In this document: piece by piece, positions 13,449 to 64,000 of the stretch | Position numbering within the stretch: position 1 is the stretch's first letter | Layout of the letters: every line of letters begins with the position of its first letter | Assembly: GCA_032622095.1 (NCBI GenBank) | Contig: CP136068.1 | Span: 52,446,443 to 52,510,442 of the forward strand | DNA from: Siphonodentalium dalli | Taxonomy: Eukaryota; Mollusca; Scaphopoda; Gadilida; Siphonodentaliidae | Reading direction: 5' to 3' | DNA length: 64,000 nt | Notes under the pieces: model-generated | Database searches by the model: none | Told to the model about the DNA's origin: nothing | The model's input: only the letters and a program-made list of their open reading frames with translations | Translations under genes and position numbers: made by a program

Positions 13449-13666
13449 TTAACCCTTTCATGACTGGAACTGCGCTGGTGCAACATTACAGATCCTCTGC
13501 CAGTGCATTTTCTTATATATGCTACAAAATCAGGGTAAATATTGTTTAGGACAATGCATTCTCTTATATATGCAAGGCTGCCTATGGGAGACTCGTATAT
13601 ATAAGAGAATGCATTGGCACAGGGATTTCGCAAAATTTCAAGAATCTCCAGTCATGGAAGGGTTAA
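13449..13666 (+). mobile_element. TTAA-flanked MITE, family B copy 2
   Basis: Starts TTAACCCTTTCATGACTGGA and ends TCCAGTCATGGAAGGGTTAA: terminal inverted repeats of about 20 bp with TTAA outside. Inside are the family hallmark motifs GCATTCTCTTATATATGC and GTATATATAAGAGAATGCAT, which pair with each other. Related copies occur at 16029, 45928, 49791, 50639, 53958, 56218 and 56846. PiggyBac-like non-autonomous origin is inferred from TTAA and CCCTTT ends. Confidence 0.75.
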
Positions 13667-16028: not shown

Positions 16029-16293
16029 TTAACCCTTTCATAACTGGAGCTGTGCTGGTGCAGCATTAAAGATCATGTGCCAGTGAATTCTCTTATATAT
16101 GCGAGTCCCCCCCCCCCCCCCCCCCCCCATAAGGAGCCTCGCATATATAAGAGAATGTCCTGGCTGTCGAGGTAAATTTTGTTAGGCCAATGCATTGTCT
16201 AATATATGCGAGGCTCCCTGAGGGAGACTTGCATATATGAGAGAATAAATAGGCACATGTTTTTCAGGAAGCTCCAGTCATGGAAGAGTTTAA
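16029..16293 (+). mobile_element. Family B MITE copy 3 with a 22-base C run
   Basis: Starts TTAACCCTTTCATAACTGGA and ends GCTCCAGTCATGGAAGAGTT followed by TAA. Contains two palindromic GCGAGxCTCC...GCATATATAAGAGAATG modules. The loop of the first hairpin has become a run of 22 C (16107-16128). Confidence 0.75.
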
Positions 16294-45927: not shown

Positions 45928-46107
45928 TACAATACTCCCATAGGGAGCCTTGCATATATAAGAGAATACATTGGCCTAACAATATCTACCTTGATCTTGT
46001 AAGCCAGTGCATTCTCCTAATATCCGGGGCACCCAATGGGAGACTCGTATATAAGAGAATGCACTGGCAAAGGATAGCTAGTGCAGCTCCCATCATGAAA
46101 GGGTTAA
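45928..46107 (+). mobile_element. Family B MITE copy 4, left end truncated
   Basis: CTCCCATAGGGAGCCTTGCA, the central ACAATATCTACCTTGATC and the right end CCCATCATGAAAGGGTTAA are present; the left TTAACCC end is missing. The 39-bp minisatellite begins at the terminal TTAA. Confidence 0.7.
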
Positions 46108-47095
46108 TGCTTGGGACATGTACTCTGCATGAAGATCAGTTATTAATGCTTGTGACATGTACTCAGCATGAGGATCAGTTATTAATGTGTGGGATATGTA
46201 CTCGGCATGAGGATCAGTTATTAATGCGTGGGATATGTACTTGGCATGATGATCAGTTATTAATGCTTGTGACATGTACTCAGCATGAGGATCAGTTATT
46301 AATGTGTGGGATATGTACTCGGCATGAGGATCAGTTATTAATGTTTTGTGATAGGTAATCGGCATGAGAATCAGTTATTAATGCGTGGGATATGTACTTG
46401 GCATGACGATCAGTTATTAATGCGTGGGATATGTACTTGGCATGATGATCAGTTATTAATGCTTGGGACATGTACTCAGCATGAGGATCAGTTATTAATG
46501 TGTGGGATATGTACTCGGCATGAAGATCAGTTATTAATGCGTGGGATATGTACTCAGCATGATGATCAGTTATTAATGTGTGGGATATGTACTCGGCATG
46601 AAGATCAGTTATTAATGTGTGGGATATGTACTCGGCATGAAGATCAGTTATTAATGTGTGGGATATGTACTCAGCATGATGATCAGTTATTAATGCTTGT
46701 GACATGTACTCAGCATGAGGATCAGTTATTAATGTGTGGGATATGTACTCGGCATGAGGATCAGTTATTAATGTTTTGTGATAGGTAATCGGCATGAGAA
46801 TCAGTTATTAATGCGTGGGATATGTACTCGGCATGAGGATCAGTTATTAATGCTTGGGACATGTACTCAGCATAAGGATCAGTTATTAATGCGTGGGACA
46901 TGTACTCGGCATGAGGATCAGTTTTTAATACGTGGGACATGTACTCGGCATGAGGATCAGTTATTAATGCGCGGGACATGTACTCGGCATGAGGATCAGT
47001 TATTAATGCTTGTGATAGGTAATCAGCACGAGAATCCGTTATTAATGCTTGGGAGATGTGCTCGGCATGAGAATCAGTTATTAATCAGTTATTTT
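46104..47095 (+). repeat. 39-bp minisatellite, about 25 copies
   Basis: Unit ATGTGTGGGATATGTACTCG plus GCATGAGGATCAGTTATTA, with variants GCTTGGGAC, GCGTGGGAT and GCTTGTGAC. A longer variant ATGTTTTGTGATAGGTAATC occurs at 46340 and 46770, marking a higher-order duplication of about 430 bp (11 units). Open frames on both strands are by-products of the 39-bp period. Confidence 0.93.
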
Positions 47096-49790: not shown

Positions 49791-50025
49791 ATGACTGGAA
49801 CTTCCTGAATTATTGTGAAAACCCTGTGCCAATGCATTCTCTTATATAAGCGAGAATATACATAAGAGAATGCATTGGCCTAACAATATTTACCTTGCTC
49901 TTGTAAGCCAGTGCATTCTCTTATATATGCGAGGCTCCCCATGGGGGACTCACATATATAAGAGAATGCACTGGCAGAGGAACTTTAATGCTGCACCAGT
50001 GCAGCTCCCATCATGAAAGGGTTAA
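49791..50025 (+). mobile_element. Family B MITE copy 5
   Basis: GGCCCTTTCATGACTGGAAC at the left and CCCATCATGAAAGGGTTAA at the right, with both internal hairpin modules. The left TTAA has become TTGG. Together with the adjacent family A copy it forms a pair of TTAA elements 46 bp apart. Confidence 0.75.
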
Positions 50026-50070
50026 AGACCATGAAGTCCTTCAATATGTTTTACAGTGTATCCTCTGGTA

Positions 50071-50260
50071 TTAACCCTTTCTATACTAAAGCATCATTGA
50101 CGAGCAGTTATCCCATAGGAAATGTTCAGATAATAAGTTCAACAAACAACCATAGGTCATTGAACTTATTATCTCAACATTTCCCTCAATAAATTTCCCT
50201 TCTGTACTTCAATTTATCTTTAGCTAACTTGGAGAATCCATTTAGTATAAAAAGGGTTAA
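50071..50260 (-). mobile_element. Family A MITE copy 7, reverse orientation
   Basis: TTAACCCTTTCTATACTAAA at the left and TTTAGTATAAAAAGGGTTAA at the right: inverted ends with TTAA on both sides. The element is short (190 bp), lacks the GGAGGGATGTTCAG block and keeps the ATAATAAGTTCAACAAAC and TTGAACTTATTATCTC pair. Confidence 0.8.
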
Positions 50261-50638
50261 AGCATTAGAACAAGAGGAACTAACTAACAATAGTTCAATC
50301 TGATGCGATAATCTACGTACTACAAATTGGGGGTTTTCAGTGAAATTGAACTTCGAATTGAAAGATAATCGCAAATCGATTACGTGCTCTCCGTCGATGC
50401 AAAGGGGCAGCAGTATTTACATGTATAAACATCACGTTATTTAAGCTACTACATCTTGAAACCAACTTTGAAACACAAGCCCCACTAATAGGGTCTGGAT
50501 GCGGATAATTTCACCCAGTTTCAAATAAATATTTTCCAGTATAATTTCTAAATCTCTGTAAAGTTTTGATTAATGAATATGGAAGTGTTATACATGTACA
50601 TTTCAAGGATACCGACACGTAACAAATATTTCTGATAT
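50261..50638. other. Intergenic, no recognised feature
   Basis: Unique AT-rich sequence; no coding evidence. Confidence 0.35.
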
Positions 50639-50977
50639 GGTTCATGACGGGAGCTGCCCTGGGGCAGCATTAAAGAACTTGTGCCAGTACATTCTCTGAT
50701 ATATGCGAGTCTCCAATAGGGAACCTTGCAGATATATAGTAACCTTGCAGATATATAGTAACCTATAGTGGTCACTGGAAAGACAAGAAAGTCGTCCAAA
50801 CGATATTATCTGCAAGAGAATGCACTGGTTTCAAAGGTCAAGGTAAATACTGTTACTTAGGCCAATGTATTATCTTATATATGCGATACTCCCCTATGGG
50901 AGACTCGGATATATGAGAGAAGGCATTGGCACAGGGTTTTCGTAAATTGCAGGAAGCTCCAGTCATTGAAGAGTTAA
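50639..50977 (+). mobile_element. Family B MITE copy 6 with internal insertion
   Basis: TTCATGACGGGAGCTGCCCT at the left and CTCCAGTCATTGAAGAGTTAA at the right flank both hairpin modules. A 19-bp duplication (CTTGCAGATATATAGTAAC, twice) and about 55 bp of other sequence lie in the first module near 50725-50808, breaking its symmetry. Confidence 0.65.
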
Positions 50978-52591: not shown

Positions 52592-53957
52592 CCTCATCTC
52601 TTCTGGAAAGTATCTTTATTATCAAATTAACAAGATTTTTTACTTTCTTTAGAAATTTCTTGTTAATTTTTAATTTAGTTTCTCTATAACCCCAAATTGT
52701 CTCCCATTCACATATATAAATAAGAGAATGCATTGGCACAGGATCTTTAATGATTTGGCCTGGAACCATGAATACATCTTTAATTTTGAGAATTCGGCTC
52801 AGATTGACATTCCTAAACATGGATTTTAGCCATACTGTTTTAGTACTGATCTGGTCTGCCCTGGCAGTAAAAGAGTTGAACAAGTGAATGACAAAAATAT
52901 AGTTCATTGCAAGCCTGAAAATTCATTTATATACACTAAAGTTTGATAACAATGATATATTTATTTAAAAATATATTTTTAATTTTAAGAGTTTTCAGAT
53001 GTACAATATGAATAAGCTCAAAACAAACTCATAGTTTTACATCATAGTTTGCATAATATGGACAGATCGGTATGTGTGAAATGGGATTAGAACAATTCAT
53101 AACCCTCAATAAACATTGAGTAAAGATGCGTGAAATGATGGCGCAGGTTAGCTAATACTCAGCCTCTAGTCGCACTTTTTGATGATTTTTTTACTTGGCA
53201 GTGCTTCATATCGGTTGATAAATGTTTCGTCACATGCAAGGTGCAAACTGTTCATTTCAAACTGTCGGCATTTACGAACAACTAAGAGCAACTAACGCGT
53301 GCAAACTTGCTTGTGTTGTCATAAATTGACAAACTCACATTGATAAAATGTTTGTATATACCTTTTTATAGCGTTTGTTGATATAAATGTTGACAGACGT
53401 AGCATTGACCTCAGACCTCTAGCCAGTTTACCAACAACACGGAATACCGGAATTGCATGTGGGGTGCTCCCCATAAACAAAGGAGGAAAGTACATCACAG
53501 AAGAAATTTGATAGCAAGATCTCACAGCGTCATTATACCCGCTCACGCGGAATTGGCGATCAAGAAAATAATAGAATAGGATACATTTATATTAATGGAA
53601 TAGATTTATTCCAACAATGATGCGGAGGGTGTTATAGGAAGCTTACCGAATATCATTGGGATGTGGTGACGGTGGGAGAGCATCTGTTTTAAAAAAATAC
53701 AGCAAAATTAGCATTCTGTCTACTATTCCGTGTTTTTTATTTATGTAATTTGTCTCGATACTTCCTGTACATCACCACGGCTTGTGTCTGGCAGACAAAC
53801 TATCAGCTGACAGGAGGCCGCCAGATAAAAAAAATCATAAACAGGCCAACTAGAGGCTGAGTATTAGATAGGCAGAGGTGAGCTGCAATTCCAAGTTAAA
53901 ACTTCCTGCCAATCACTGAACTAAGTACTACTTCTGATGAGGACCTCATAACTAGTA
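52592..53957. other. Intergenic with one family B remnant
   Basis: CACATATATAAATAAGAGAATGC near 52711 and CCTGGAACCATGA near 52760 are leftovers of a family B element. Further right, AACTAGAGGCTGAGTATTAG (about 53848) is the inverted copy of TAGCTAATACTCAGCCTCTAG (about 53150), giving a possible element of about 720 bp between them. No gene is supported. Confidence 0.4.
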
Positions 53958-54211
53958 TTAACCCTTTGAGTGCCAGGTCCGACTTTTGTATCAACCCATA
54001 TACCCTGTGCCAATGCATTCTCTTATATATATGCGAGTCGACCATAGGTCGCCTCGCATATATAAGAGAATGCATTGGCTTAACAATTTTTTTGTTTTTT
54101 TGTTTTTTTTACAGTTTTTTACAATTTTAATATATTTTATTATATTCTTTAACAGACTTATTGTGTAGGTTTAGGGCCGATAATATCGGCCCCTGGCACT
54201 CAAAGGGTTAA
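53958..54211 (+). mobile_element. TTAA MITE with family B core and different ends
   Basis: Terminal inverted repeats TTAACCCTTTGAGTGCCAGG and CCTGGCACTCAAAGGGTTAA are perfect over 20 bp and bounded by TTAA, but differ from other family B ends. The core has the same hairpin TGCCAATGCATTCTCTTATA with TATAAGAGAATGCATTGGC. A second hairpin GGGCCGATAATATCGGCCC lies near the right end. Confidence 0.85.
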
Positions 54212-56217: not shown

Positions 56218-56484
56218 TAACCCTTCCATGACTGGAGCTTCCTGAAATTTTGGAAAAACCCTGTGCCAATGCATTCTCTTATATATGCGAGTCTTCCATA
56301 CCTAGGGCGCCTTGCATATATATGAGAATGCATTGGCCGAACAATATTTACCTTTGTCTTGTAAGTCAGTGAATTCTCTTATATATGCGAGGCTCCCTAT
56401 GGAATACTCGCATATATAAGAGTATGCACTGGCACAGGGTGTTTAATGCTGCACCAGTGCAGCTCCCATCATGAAAGGGTTTAA
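56218..56484 (+). mobile_element. Family B MITE copy 8
   Basis: CTAACCCTTCCATGACTGGA at the left and CCCATCATGAAAGGGTTTAA at the right, with both hairpin modules complete. It is followed within five bases by a family A copy. Confidence 0.8.
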
Positions 56485-56845: not shown

Positions 56846-57377
56846 TTAAACCTTTCATGACGGGAGCTGCGCTGGTGCAGCATTAAAGACCCTATGCCAG
56901 TGCATTCACTTATATATGCGATTCTAACATATATAAGAGAATGCACTGGCTTACAAAATCAAGGTAAATATTGTTAGGCCAATGCATTCTCTTATATATG
57001 CGAGGCACTCTTATGGGGAAACTCACATATATAAGAGAATGCACTGGCTTACAAATTCAAGGTAAATATTGTTAGGCCAATGCATTCTCTTATATATGCT
57101 AGGCGCCCTCTCTAAACAAACAGTTAATTTAATCAGCGCTGGAGCAGCATTAAATATCCTGTGCCAGTGCATTCTCTAATATGTATGCGAGTCTCTCATA
57201 GGGAGCCTCGCATATATAAGAGAATGCACTGGTTTACAAGGTTAAGGTAAATATGGTTAGGCCAATGCATTCTCTTATATTTGCTAAGCGACCTATGGGA
57301 GACTCACATATATAAGAGAATGCAGAGGCACAGGGTTTTCGCAAAAATTCAGGAAGCTCCAGTCATCAAAGAGTTAA
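56846..57377 (+). mobile_element. Compound family B MITE
   Basis: Starts CTTAAACCTTTCATGACGGG and ends CTCCAGTCATCAAAGAGTTAA. Between them are four hairpin modules, not two, with a partial element start (AATTTAATCAGCGCTGGAGC) near 57128. This suggests one copy inserted in or fused with another. It lies less than 200 bp downstream of the SIK stop codon and may be in its 3' UTR. Confidence 0.75.
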
Positions 57378-57564: not shown

Positions 57565-59412
57565 TCAAGAGAGATCCATCTCTTCATCATTCCCAACATT
57601 CACAATCGGCTTCTGAGAATATGAAGCCTGCAAAATCGACTGTGCTTGCGATATTTGTGAATCGCTCGCCGAGCATGGAGTATTTCCATTCACAGAAATG
57701 TCGCCTACACACAGATGATTTTCACTTCCGATAGAAAGTCCTGCGATTCCTGTCCCAACACTCGCAAAATATGATTGGTCCTGCGAATGTGCCTTCCCAT
57801 TTGGAAAAGCCATGTCGCCGCTAACATTCGGATAAATACCTAATGTATTACTGCTTTCTGCCAACGTTCCTGAACCCGAATAACTTCCTTGCAGAAGCGT
57901 GTGAGAAAGAACGTCCTCCGACAGTTCAAGTTTTTGGCCAGGTGGCAGAAGTTGCGAAAGAGTGTTTTTTCGTTCAACTCTCGCACCAGTTGACTGATTG
58001 CTTGCACTTGATAATTGATCTTCTAAGCTAAAGTCATTAAAATTTGGTGGATTTTTCGTGTCGATTTGCAACATTTGTAGTTGCTGTTGGAGCGGCGTGT
58101 GTTTCTGGAACGTCTGCCGTTTTTGTTGCAGACGATGCTGAAGAAGCTGTTGCTGTAACGATTTGACGGGTGACTGAATTTGATATGCTGACATTGGCAA
58201 CTCTTCTGTTCTGTCAATGTGTTGCTCTAGCTGTCGACTGTGCTTCATCGCCAAGAATTTATGTGGCTGCATGTCGACCGTGTCTGAAGGTAAACTCATC
58301 CTTTTCAATAAAGGATGTGATGATTTTATCCCATACCTAGAATTATACTCATCCAGCGACATTTGTCGAAAACCGGCTCTGTCATTATAATGACGTTGCC
58401 TGGCCCGTAAAGCCTCTTCATCGTTTAAAAATTCCTTGTACCTGTTTTGAAGCTCTTGATGTTCCTGGCGAAGTTCGGCCATGCCTTGCGTCCGCATTCC
58501 TTCACGTAATCGTTGCTTAAACGCTATAACTCCTTGAGCTACAAGTCCATCAGAAGCTCGTCTGCCTTCCCTGAAATTAACAGGTGACCTCATTCGCGAC
58601 CTCTCCATGGTAACATTTTCCTGCAGCGTGCATGTTTTTTCATCGGTAGCATCAGATATTGCGTTCGAATCCTCACTGACCTGGCTTAAAGGTGGCTGAT
58701 TGTCATTTGGGCCTCCGACTAGACCAGGATGCAACAGAGAATTGATGCTACTTTGAGAGTTTAGACAAAGACTAGACATAGAATCGGGCTCAAACGATGA
58801 GTCGAAGCTGGTGAATGTCGAACTCAAGTTTGGCTGGTCAGTTTTCGATTGATCCTTGTTACTGTTGTTCGATTCAACTCCAACAATTTGTGACATATCA
58901 CCAAAAGCACAACTCGGGACCAGCCCGATGCCGTACCCATCACGAGCGAAACCCTGATCACGACTCTCCACGTTATCACGATTATCCTCCTTTTCATACA
59001 TATCTGCTTCAACACCCTCGTCGATTGACGTTGTTATCACTTGACCAGGAACATGCGTTTTGACCGTTGGTTTTGGAAACACTTCCTGTATGGCTATATT
59101 CACACCAGGTGGCACCTGTATGTTCTCGATGTCCAACAGTTGACCCCTATTACGAACAGGGACTGATGGGTAATCGACAGACTGACTTGTCTTCAGACAC
59201 GCTAGAACCTGCGATGCAGTAAGAAAGGGTGCACCAGCGCCTGTCATGTTCGGAGCATTCCTTATTATTGCTTGGTCCGATATAGTACTTGGTCTTCTCT
59301 TCCGTGGATCGACACAATTGTCTGTGGGATAACTGTATCGATGTTGACGAATTCGTTCTTGTAAAAGGTAATATATTGCTGTGTAATGATCGTATGCATC
59401 ATTCTTTAGAGC
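57565..59412 (-). CDS. SIK: Salt-inducible kinase, last coding exon (UBA end and regulatory tail)
   Basis: Acceptor TTGTTGACAG precedes 59412; stop TGA at 57565-57567; 615 residues. It opens with ALKNDAYDHYTAIYYLLQER, the typical second half of the SIK UBA-like domain. RKRRPSTISDQ (exon residues 37-47) matches the site around Ser358 of SIK2, and NFREGRRASDG (Ser at about residue 287) that around Ser587; in the family, PKA phosphorylates these serines, 14-3-3 binds and the kinase is held in the cytoplasm. A Gln-rich stretch lies at about residues 419-448. SIKs phosphorylate CRTC coactivators and class IIa HDACs. The frame is intact. RRASDGLVAQGVIAFKQRL looks SIK1/SIK2-like rather than SIK3-like, but the paralogue is uncertain. 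Confidence 0.93.
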   Translation of the reverse strand, partial: ALKNDAYDHYTAIYYLLQERIRQHRYSYPTDNCVDPRKRRPSTISDQAIIRNAPNMTGAGAPFLTASQVLACLKTSQSVDYPSVPVRNRGQLLDIENIQVPPGVNIAIQEVFPKPTVKTHVPGQVITTSIDEGVEADMYEKEDNRDNVESRDQGFARDGYGIGLVPSCAFGDMSQIVGVESNNSNKDQSKTDQPNLSSTFTSFDSSFEPDSMSSLCLNSQSSINSLLHPGLVGGPNDNQPPLSQVSEDSNAISDATDEKTCTLQENVTMERSRMRSPVNFREGRRASDGLVAQGVIAFKQRLREGMRTQGMAELRQEHQELQNRYKEFLNDEEALRARQRHYNDRAGFRQMSLDEYNSRYGIKSSHPLLKRMSLPSDTVDMQPHKFLAMKHSRQLEQHIDRTEELPMSAYQIQSPVKSLQQQLLQHRLQQKRQTFQKHTPLQQQLQMLQIDTKNPPNFNDFSLEDQLSSASNQSTGARVERKNTLSQLLPPGQKLELSEDVLSHTLLQGSYSGSGTLAESSNTLGIYPNVSGDMAFPNGKAHSQDQSYFASVGTGIAGLSIGSENHLCVGDISVNGNTPCSASDSQISQAQSILQASYSQKPIVNVGNDEEMDLS

Positions 59413-60724
59413 CTGTCAACAAGAACATGATATTAATTTATACCTGGGTGGAAAAAACAACAGGTTGCAACACGGGTGCTGGCATACTCTTGCAGTGCCA
59501 AATTTAAACATGGACAAGACGGAACCCCAAATTTAGGACTACAACATCAACATTTCCAAATATACAAAGAAGAAGAAAAAGGATAACTCTATCTAAAGCA
59601 GAAAATGTGAATGTCTTGGGTCCTGGGGACATCTTCCATATCAAATTCAACTCAGATGAGATGAAGCAAGATAAATGCCCAGACGGATACTACCGGTAGA
59701 TGGACAAAGTCAATACAATATATCCACAATGTTTTTTTTAAGTGGACGTAATTAAAAAGGTTCTATTGTTTTTATATTATAAGAAGATTATAAATGGTTT
59801 CTTGCAATTGCAATTCAAAATTTACTTCTACCTGTTAATATTATCACACAAGTTTGTTACGACACGGTGGTAGAATGATTTATGCTGATCATTGGACCTC
59901 TATAGTGATAGCTAACTCCTACCTCTATTGTGGGAGCTAACTCCTACTTCTATTGTGGGAGCTAACTCCTACCTCTATTGTATTATGTCGATCATGGGAG
60001 CTAACTCTTACCTCTATTGTATTATGCTGATCATGGGAGCTAACTCTTACCTCTATTGTATTATGCTGATCATGGGAGCTAACTCTTACCTCTATTGTAT
60101 GATGCTGATCATGGGAACTAACTCCTATCTCTATTGTATGATGCTGATCATGGGAGCTAACTCTTACCTCTATTGTATTATGCTGATCATGGGAGCTAAC
60201 TCTTACCTCTAAATGAGTGTATGATGCTGATCATGGGAGCTAACTCTTACCTCTATTGTATGATGCTGATCATGGGAACTAACTCCTATCTCTATTGTAT
60301 TATGCTGATCATGGGAGCTAACTCTTACCTCTATTGTATGATGCTGATCATGGGAGCTAACTCCTATCTCTATTGTATTATGCTGATCATGGGAGCTAAC
60401 TCTTACCTCTATTGTATTATGCTGATCATGGGAGCTAACTCTTACCTTTATTGTATGATGCTGATCATGGGAGCTAACTCTTACCTCTATTGTATTATGC
60501 TGATCATGGGAGCTAACTCTTACCTCTATTGTATGATGCTGATCATGGGAGCTAACTCTTACCTCTATTGTATTATGCTGATCATGGGAGCTAACTCTTA
60601 CCTCTATTGTATTATGCTGATCATGGGAGCTAACTCCTACCTCTATTGAATTATGCTGATCATGGGAGCGAACTCCTACTAGTACCTCTATTGTATTTTG
60701 CTGATCATTGGAGCTAACTCCTAC
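59413..60724 (-). other. Last SIK intron
   Basis: Runs from the donor GAG|GTAGGAG (GT at 60724-60723) to the acceptor ending at 59413. The first 820 bp on the minus strand are the splice-site minisatellite; the remainder (59413-59900) is unique AT-rich sequence. Intron phase is 0, so any alternative donor in the 39-bp array keeps the reading frame as long as the frame is open. Confidence 0.8.
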
Positions 60725-60760
60725 CTCTATTGTATTATGCTGATCAATGCCTAGGCTTTG
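59905..60760 (-). repeat. 39-bp minisatellite containing the SIK exon end and 5' splice site
   Basis: On the minus strand each unit reads GATCAGCATAATACAATAGAG, then GTAAGAGTTAGCTCCCAT. The first unit is the real exon end (DQHNTIE codons), and the rest are about 21 tandem copies of that exon-intron junction. GT positions include 60724, 60685, 60640 and 60601, then every 39 bp. Units 4-7 and most later ones have GAG|GTAAGA, a better donor than the first unit's GAG|GTAGGA; three units (about 60363, 60285 and 60129) have AT in place of GT. The coding frame stays open from the exon to a stop at 60209-60211, adding 13 residues (VRVSSHDQHNTIE) per unit. Confidence 0.92.
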
Positions 60761-60948
60761 CATAAGTCGTAGGATCTGTTCACTGTATTCTCCAGCTTTC
60801 GTCTTTTCACCTATCAGTGGTGTTGACGTCATCATTTTGTCCAGTTTCTCACCACCTTGCTTCATCCAGTGGTGATTGCGAATCTGTTGTATTGTATAAC
60901 GCTTTGACGGATCAAGAACAAGCATTTTCCTTATAAGGTGCTCACATT
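60725..60948 (-). CDS. SIK: Salt-inducible kinase, penultimate coding exon (end of kinase domain and start of UBA)
   Basis: Acceptor TTATTTTCAG before 60948; donor GAG|GTAGG after 60725. The frame reads (E)CEHLIRKMLVLDPSKRYTI, then QQIRNHHWMKQ, and later EQILRLMQSLGIDQHNTIE. CEHLIRxMLVxDPxKR and the HxWM motif are the end of the AMPK-related/SIK kinase C-lobe; LGID...TIE is the first half of the UBA-like region. Joined in phase 0 to the next exon it gives GIDQHNTIE-ALKNDAYDHYTAIYYLL, colinear with known SIKs, which supports the first donor as the ancestral one. The exon starts with a split codon, and the rest of the kinase lies beyond the right edge. Use of a donor further into the array would extend the exon by multiples of 13 residues. 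Confidence 0.93.
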
Positions 60949-62469: not shown

Positions 62470-64000
62470 AAGAGATATATATAAATGTAAAATCCAAGAT
62501 GGTTGCTGACGGCATTGTTTTCCAATGAAATTCAAAAACATTTGATAGCATCCATCAGTAGATCAATATCAAGATTAATATGAAGTTTGGTGTGATCGTA
62601 TGAGGGAAGTGGACAGTAGGGTGTGCCAAAAGATTTAGTCATGCAAAGAGTAAAATCCAAGATGGCTGCCAGCGGTCATATTTTATGGCCGAATGACCCC
62701 CAAAATGACCCGTTCCCATCTACATGTCATTGTTAACATCCATGACAAATTTCATCATGATCCGATCAAAGGTACGACCTGTAACCCGTACTAAAGGATT
62801 TAGTCATGCCAAGAGAAAAATCCAAGATGGCTGCCAGCAGCCATGTTTTATGACTGAATGACTCCAAAATGGCTCGTTCCCATCTACATATCAATGTTAA
62901 CATCCATGACAAATTTCATGATGATCAGACGAACACTCTGGTCTGTAGTCTGCGGATTGAATTGAATTGATAGAATTTTGAAATCCAAGATGACCACTGG
63001 CAGCCATGTTTTATGGCCGAATGACCTCAAAATGACTCGTTCCCATCTGCATGTCAATGTCAACAGCCATGACAAATTTCATAATGATCCGACCAAAGGT
63101 ACAACCTGTAGCCCGTACCAAATGATTTAGTCATGCAAAGAGTAAAATCAAAGATGGCTGCCAGTGGCCATGTTTTATGGCCGAATGGCCCCAAATGACT
63201 CGTTTCCGATCTACATGTCAATGTCTACATCCATGACAAATTTCATAATGATCCAACCACAGGTATGAACTGTAGCCCATGCCATATGATTTAGTCATGC
63301 AAAGAGTAAAATCAAAGATGGCCGCCTGCGGCCATGTTTTATGGCCGAATGACCCCAAAATGACTCGTTTCCCATCTGCATGTCAATATTAACATCCATG
63401 ACAAATTTCATAATGATCCGACAAAAATTCCAGCCTGTAGCCCATGCTAATGGATTAAATTTTGAAATCCAAGATGGCCGATGGCAGCCATGTTTTTTTG
63501 CCGAATGACCCCCAAAATGACTCGTTCCCATCAACATTTCAATGTTAATAGCCATGACAAATTTCATGATGATCCGACCAAAGGTACGACCTGTAACCCG
63601 TACCAAAGGATTTAGTCATGCCAAGAGAAAAATCCAAGATGGCTGCCAGCAGGCAATGTTTTATGGCCGATTGACCCCAAAATGACTCATTCCCATATAC
63701 ATGTCAATGTTAACAACCATGACAAATTTCATGATGATCCGACCAAAGGTACGACCTGTAGCCCGTGCCAAAGGATTTAGTCATGCAAAGAGTAAAATCG
63801 AAGATGGCTGCCAGTGGCCATGTTTTATGGGCGAATGACCCCAAAATGACTTGTTCCCATCAACATGTCAATATTAACGTCCATGACAAATTTCATGATG
63901 ATCCTACCAAAGGTACGACCTGTAGCCTGTGACAAAGGATTTAGTCATGCAAAGAGTAAAATCCAAGATGGCCAAATAACCCCAAAATGACTCGTTCCAA
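62470..64000 (+). repeat. About 164-bp tandem satellite reaching the window edge
   Basis: The phrase AATCCAAGATGGCTGCCAG recurs at about 62490, 62655, 62820, 62983, 63146, 63311, 63467, 63631, 63797 and 63960, a period of 156-166 bp. Conserved neighbours are GCCATGTTTTATGGCCGAAT, CCCCAAAATGACTCGTTCCC, ATGACAAATTTCATGATGAT and GATTTAGTCATGCAAAGAG. Copies differ by about 5-15%. The array continues beyond 64000, so its length is unknown. It lies upstream of the visible SIK exons, presumably in an intron. Confidence 0.9.

Follow-up and report, generated by a model that had tools for sequence, protein, structure and literature searches.

The end of an exon of a salt-inducible kinase (SIK) gene has been amplified, together with the beginning of the intron that follows it, into a 39-bp minisatellite with 22 copies of the exon-intron junction. 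This array is a real, well-defined and unusual feature of the window, that is, of the whole 64,000-nucleotide stretch of DNA that was analysed. It is probably a “mirage” minisatellite within the SIK intron, a largely neutral by-product of repeat turnover, with the authentic junction being the one that is mainly used. Mirage-type repeats are already known from lancelets; the SIK array would extend them to a signalling kinase and to a mollusc-like genome. Many near-identical donors in a single intron, with stronger competitors included, also constitute a natural test of how the spliceosome chooses a 5′ splice site. The features on which the analysis rests are the following:

60725..60948, minus strand: SIK exon A, 224 nt, end of the kinase domain and first half of the UBA domain; assigned from the reading frame, acceptor and donor, and the match to SIK3
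60723..60724, minus strand: authentic 5′ splice site, GAG/GTAGGA, score 8.13 on an animal donor matrix
59896..60746, minus strand: 39-bp minisatellite, 22 junction copies counting the native one; units 20 and 21 shortened to 25 bp
60212..60724, minus strand: part of the array that is open in the exon frame, 171 codons, units 1-13, with the native donor and 8 stronger, 1 equal and 2 weak donors
59921..60206, minus strand: units 14-22, with 8 scored donors (5 strong); any use of these would include the in-frame TAG and give a truncated product
57565..59412, minus strand: SIK exon B, 615 codons and stop (TGA), second half of the UBA domain and C-terminal region

Anatomy of the junction array

The tandem unit crosses the exon-intron boundary, with 22 exonic bases, TGATCAGCATAATACAATAGAG, followed directly by 17 intronic bases, GTAAGAGTTAGCTCCCA. 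The native junction is identical to the unit consensus over the 22 bases of the exon part and departs from it only within the intron, where it has G at +4 and A at +16. A preliminary description of this DNA had proposed that an exon end and intron start were amplified in a SIK gene, into about 22 tandem copies, and both statements hold: a pattern count yields 22 junctions, and TRF reports a 39-bp array of 20 copies at 59956-60746 (91% matches) with additional 25-bp units at 59896-59981. The location given there was 59905..60760; the array extends slightly below this lower limit, to about 59896. With up to three mismatches allowed, the 22-base exon end has 19 matches in the window, all of them within the array; in 100 shuffles the mean number of matches was 0.00 and the highest 0.

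Among the junction copies, 12 read GAG/GTAAGA, one AAG/GTAAGA and four GAG/GTAGGA, including the native site at 60724; the remainder are three GAG/ATAGGA, which are without GT, one CTA/GTAGGA and one GAA/GTAGGA. GT is retained in 19 of the 22, and an extra weak GT at 60685 (GAG/GTACTA) lies outside the junction pattern. Indels comprise six additional bases in unit 1, five in unit 13 (resulting in a 44-bp unit) and the shortening of units 20 and 21 to 25 bp. The interior of the array is homogenised, most of its copies having GTAAGA, whereas both edges are divergent and show GTAGGA as well as length variants. Exceptions in the interior are the three ATAGGA copies, which share the G at +4, and unit 13 with its 44 bp. 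The array terminates in TCCAATGATCAGCATAA, with a 12-base overhang, TGATCAGCATAA, and is followed by unique sequence. We rejected a higher-order dimer organisation, as the similarity at lags 1, 2 and 4 did not exceed that of shuffled order (p 0.94, 0.64 and 0.59, respectively, over 17 core units, of which one was misaligned through an indel). At the 3′ end (59896-59981), the 25-bp units (GTAGGAGTTAGCTCCCACAATAGA...) appear as if a unit that had lost 14 bp from its inside had itself been duplicated.

The SIK gene and the age of its intron

Judged by its sequence, the gene is a salt-inducible kinase of the SIK1/2-like type. Both exons are nearest to molluscan SIK2/SIK1-like proteins among the matches listed (best 120 of 1018), and the best protein match among these is a SIK of Pinctada imbricata (47% identity at a query coverage of 96%); none of the best 120 of 1018 homologues was close enough to be a protein of the same species. 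In a tree of 36 rows, the SIK of the window groups with molluscs, on a long branch (1.56) and at a weakly supported fork (86/57), for which reason it is described as no more than mollusc-like. A UBA domain of the SIK type is present C-terminal to the kinase domain: when exon A is fused with the first part of exon B, the nearest solved structures are SIK3 chains (8oku, E 4.1e-23, and 8r4o). Exon B alone matches positions 22-40 of the PF23312 profile (UBA_SIK3; E 4.4e-4; 20.6 bits, where the curated cut-off is 27), and since this profile has 40 positions, the intron splits the UBA domain, confirming the proposed location of the junction between two UBA halves.

Exon A is preceded by TTATTTTCAG on its acceptor side and ends in phase 0 with ...DQHNTIE. 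Exon B starts at 59412, preceded by TTGACAG, and its C-terminal ...DEEMDLS resembles DExMDxS, the consensus end of the homologues. Upstream kinase exons were not present in the ORF lists of the window. A 164/327-bp array at 62623-63973, upstream of exon A, probably lies within the preceding SIK intron; its consensus has, on the opposite strand, a donor-like site of fair quality.

The intron is probably old and the array derived. Of the 120 listed homologues, 96 span the junction by BLAST and 24 do not. We kept 94 of the 96 and dropped P0027, whose upstream part is unlike UBA (1/15 identical) and looks like intron read-through, as well as P0023 (Tegillarca), which has three extra residues in a poorly matching stretch (3/12 identical), probably a gene-model error. 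The 94 that remain (among the best 120 of 1018) have a genuine alignment across the junction; the end of exon A is ordinary UBA sequence in them, and none has a gap at the junction. The 13-residue insertions that the preliminary description suggested looking for in related SIK proteins are absent from this set. Leaving P0023 aside, 25 listed homologues lack a genuine alignment across the junction: 9 extend to the opening codon of exon B, and 16 begin downstream. All 9 have a Q immediately before this codon, with only one or two residues ahead of the Q in P0037, P0045 and P0060. This fits read-through of a CAG acceptor, as gauged from the proteins of the relatives and not from their genomic DNA, and the position of the intron therefore looks shared with them.

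The anatomy of the unit can be read off directly; by the mutational route that we infer, a tandem duplication would have taken in the 3′ end of the SIK exon together with the 5′ end of the phase-0 intron behind it, and slippage or unequal exchange would then have amplified and homogenised the duplicated unit. Short direct repeats, of which one lay in the exon end and the other in the intron, may have bounded the initial duplication. The 12-base overhang is what a duplication of this kind would leave, and the claim is tentative due to the rearranged 3′ edge. The GTAAGA form looks like a single change propagated by repeat turnover, since most interior copies carry it and GTAGGA is found at the two edges, although a G at +4 is also present in the three interior copies without GT.

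Donor strength and predicted products

Donors were scored with an animal donor matrix. On this matrix, the 13 copies of the form (G/A)AG/GTAAGA reach 9.99-10.16, as compared to 8.13 for the native site, in agreement with the earlier assertion that most copies have a better donor than the native GAG/GTAGGA (13 of 22). Their advantage is modest, because the U1 duplexes differ by only 0.2-0.3 kcal/mol (-9.3 kcal/mol for the native donor vs -9.6 or -9.5 kcal/mol for the stronger copies). Among the 7282 GT of the window (both strands), 22 score at least 9.9, 13 of which are in the array and 9 elsewhere; apart from both rows of the SIK array, none of the 42 array rows of the window has a consensus donor of at least 8. 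The local-fold accessibility of the native donor is 0.45; among the 13 GTAAGA copies, 12 have values of 0.48-0.57 and one has 0.22. With a native donor that is both weaker and, by tendency, less accessible, sequence alone does not predict that it is used exclusively. A hairpin masking the native donor found no support: energies in short pieces were -4.8 vs -3.2 kcal/mol, yet the native site was the more open one (0.56 vs 0.41).

The frame of exon A remains open for 171 codons into the array, which substantiates the roughly 13 open units described before, and is closed by a TAG at 60211-60209, adjoining the 5-bp insertion. Use of the weak donors at 60685 and 60679 is predicted to insert 13 and 15 residues, respectively, and use of the donor at 60640, whose score equals that of the native site, 28 residues. 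For the eight strong donors between 60601 and 60250, the predicted insertions are 41, 54, 67, 80, 93, 106, 132 and 158 residues. It had been expected that the choice of donor would add multiples of 13 residues without a frameshift; the insertions are in frame, up to the TAG, and their lengths are mostly 13n+2 instead, because of the 6-bp insertion in unit 1. They would land in the middle of the UBA domain, given that exon B starts at position 22 of PF23312. As the UBA domains of AMPK-family kinases are three-helix bundles attached to the kinase domain (PMC4686854, excerpt), an insertion would probably disturb this domain.

The open frame itself needs little explanation, because the frame of a 39-mer stays open with 71% of random 17-base intron starts; a unit length divisible by three would be roughly a one-in-three event. 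Within the in-frame part, units 1-13, the substitutions show no sign of constraint on either peptide or donors, at little power: the nine distinct changes are 1 synonymous and 8 nonsynonymous, where all possible changes of the consensus unit comprise 23 synonymous, 91 nonsynonymous and 3 stop. The nine donor columns received 3 of the 9 substitutions, with 2.1 expected, again at little power. A first count of 6 synonymous, 30 nonsynonymous and 1 stop was inflated by indel-shifted units and was replaced by the count over registered units 1-13. The functional role previously suggested for the array receives no support from the tests made here, each of which is weak by itself.

To search for relatives of the array peptide, we used a 245-residue query of read-through exon and array, scored over residues 60-245. 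None of 7992 scored candidates, all about 135-429 residues long and so shorter than full-length kinases, matched at E<=0.01. Weak Pfam matches of the array peptide to DUF7590 and CBM_6, below the curated cut-offs, were rejected as repeat noise.

Parallels, competing explanations and other repeats

The lancelet mirages are minisatellite-like duplications of exon-intron boundaries in Adh3, troponin C and globins; their clusters are unstable in length, and in one of them the cluster boundaries are excluded from homogenisation (PMC3087553). Data on Adh3 and RT-PCR of globins suggest that regular splicing is undisturbed, though many copies keep possible cryptic splice signals (PMC3087553), and an excerpt of PMC3902484 states that the Adh and troponin C mirages generate no aberrant mRNAs; it also describes a mirage in PGBD5 with imperfect 60- and 108-bp repeats. 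The SIK array resembles these cases (Adh3, troponin C, BflGb6/BflGb9, PGBD5) in having a boundary-spanning unit with splice signals in many copies, and BflGb6 in being homogenised inside and divergent at the boundary. It differs from lancelet mirages in phylum and gene, in that most copies have a donor stronger than the original, and in its open frame. It has 22 junction copies, whereas the two BflGb6 haplotypes have 6 and 3 units, and its unit of 39 bp compares to units of 10-72 bp (Adh3) and of 150-160 bp (BflGb6). For the lancelet mirages, unstable lengths as well as regular splicing have been reported; the SIK array is known here from one sequence.

The repeated donors of a VNTR in human CBS reportedly allow alternative splicing, a point that Lievers is said to have made in 2001. 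This VNTR, c.1444_1467+7, has 31-bp units in 16 to 21 copies (PMC2630376, excerpt). By these coordinates, it likewise joins an exon end to the first 7 intron bases, at a similar copy number; unlike in SIK, the unit is not a multiple of three, and polymorphism is known. Internal tandem repeats at exon boundaries in human segmental duplications, averaging four 30-bp units in recent paralogues (PMC2812944, excerpt), are also minisatellites that alter introns, as far as the excerpt describes them, whereas SIK has a long array in one gene. We rejected the minisatellites of earthworm metallothionein and CeRep25B of C. elegans as parallels, as the excerpts on them describe intronic repeats and no splice-junction array. 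Among the listed matches in openly licensed literature, we found no mirage-type array in SIK or in molluscs.

If the array is a largely neutral mirage, most transcripts would still be spliced at or near the authentic junction, internal donors would occasionally be used and lead to in-frame UBA insertions, and donors further down would yield truncated, probably degraded transcripts. Because the native donor is the weaker one, such leaky in-frame isoforms are possible. We count in favour of neutral turnover that 47.5% of the window lies in tandem arrays, as well as the three of 22 copies without GT and the substitution counts. Appreciable splicing at internal donors seems rather unlikely to us; it would produce a family of SIK proteins whose UBA domain is longer by 28 to 158 residues, varying between individuals with array length. 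Eight in-frame donors outscore the native one and keep the frame, and boundary tandem repeats in human segmental duplications changed introns, with 66% of the changes also having repeat-retaining transcripts (PMC2812944, excerpt); but there is no sign of selection on peptide or donors (9 changes), the insertion would fall mid-domain, and in lancelets splicing is stated to stay regular despite the mirages (PMC3087553; PMC3902484, excerpt). The empty array-peptide search counts little against it, considering the protein lengths covered. In a stronger form, the number of units would set the number of competing in-frame donors, and individuals would mix kinases with 28 to 158 extra UBA residues; this is unlikely, and it keeps a modest probability because eight in-frame internal donors outscore the native one. 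If true, the array would be a heritable, quickly mutating dial on kinase regulation.

Donors from 60206 on might instead compete for U1 or give premature-stop transcripts, so that array length would tune the SIK level via nonsense-mediated decay or slow splicing. Five strong donors do lie beyond the TAG, and the array holds 13 of the 22 donors of the window (both strands) that score 9.9 or more, but GT has been lost in three copies and constraint is not apparent, and we consider this effect quite improbable. That the repeat is the older element, from which the intron or the exon end was later recruited, is very improbable: such intron gain is a published model for mirages, proposed for lancelet globin (PMC3087553), but in SIK the exon end is ordinary, ungapped UBA sequence in the 94 listed spanning homologues and the intron position seems common to relatives.

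Several other repeats were observed in the window. A 22.9-kb satellite at 20983-43896 comprises about 954 copies of a 24-bp unit (AAACCCATGTCAATATGGAAGACT); since the unit length is a multiple of three, long open frames run on both strands (5226 aa on minus), which are unlikely to be genes. A second 39-bp minisatellite, at 46104-47085, has about 25 copies of a different unit, whose consensus is without a good splice donor. A 20-bp motif, AATGCATTCTCTTATATATG, occurs 30 times with up to three mismatches, as compared to 0.02 expected:

13502-13615, 16082-16208, 45953-46065, 49831-50927, 52715-52734, 54012-54076, 56268-56430, 56899-57326: sites of the 20-bp motif

Many of its copies form inverted pairs, only some tens of bases apart, and some lie just 3′ of the SIK stop codon; by this arrangement, the motif appears to be a small dispersed hairpin or MITE-like repeat.
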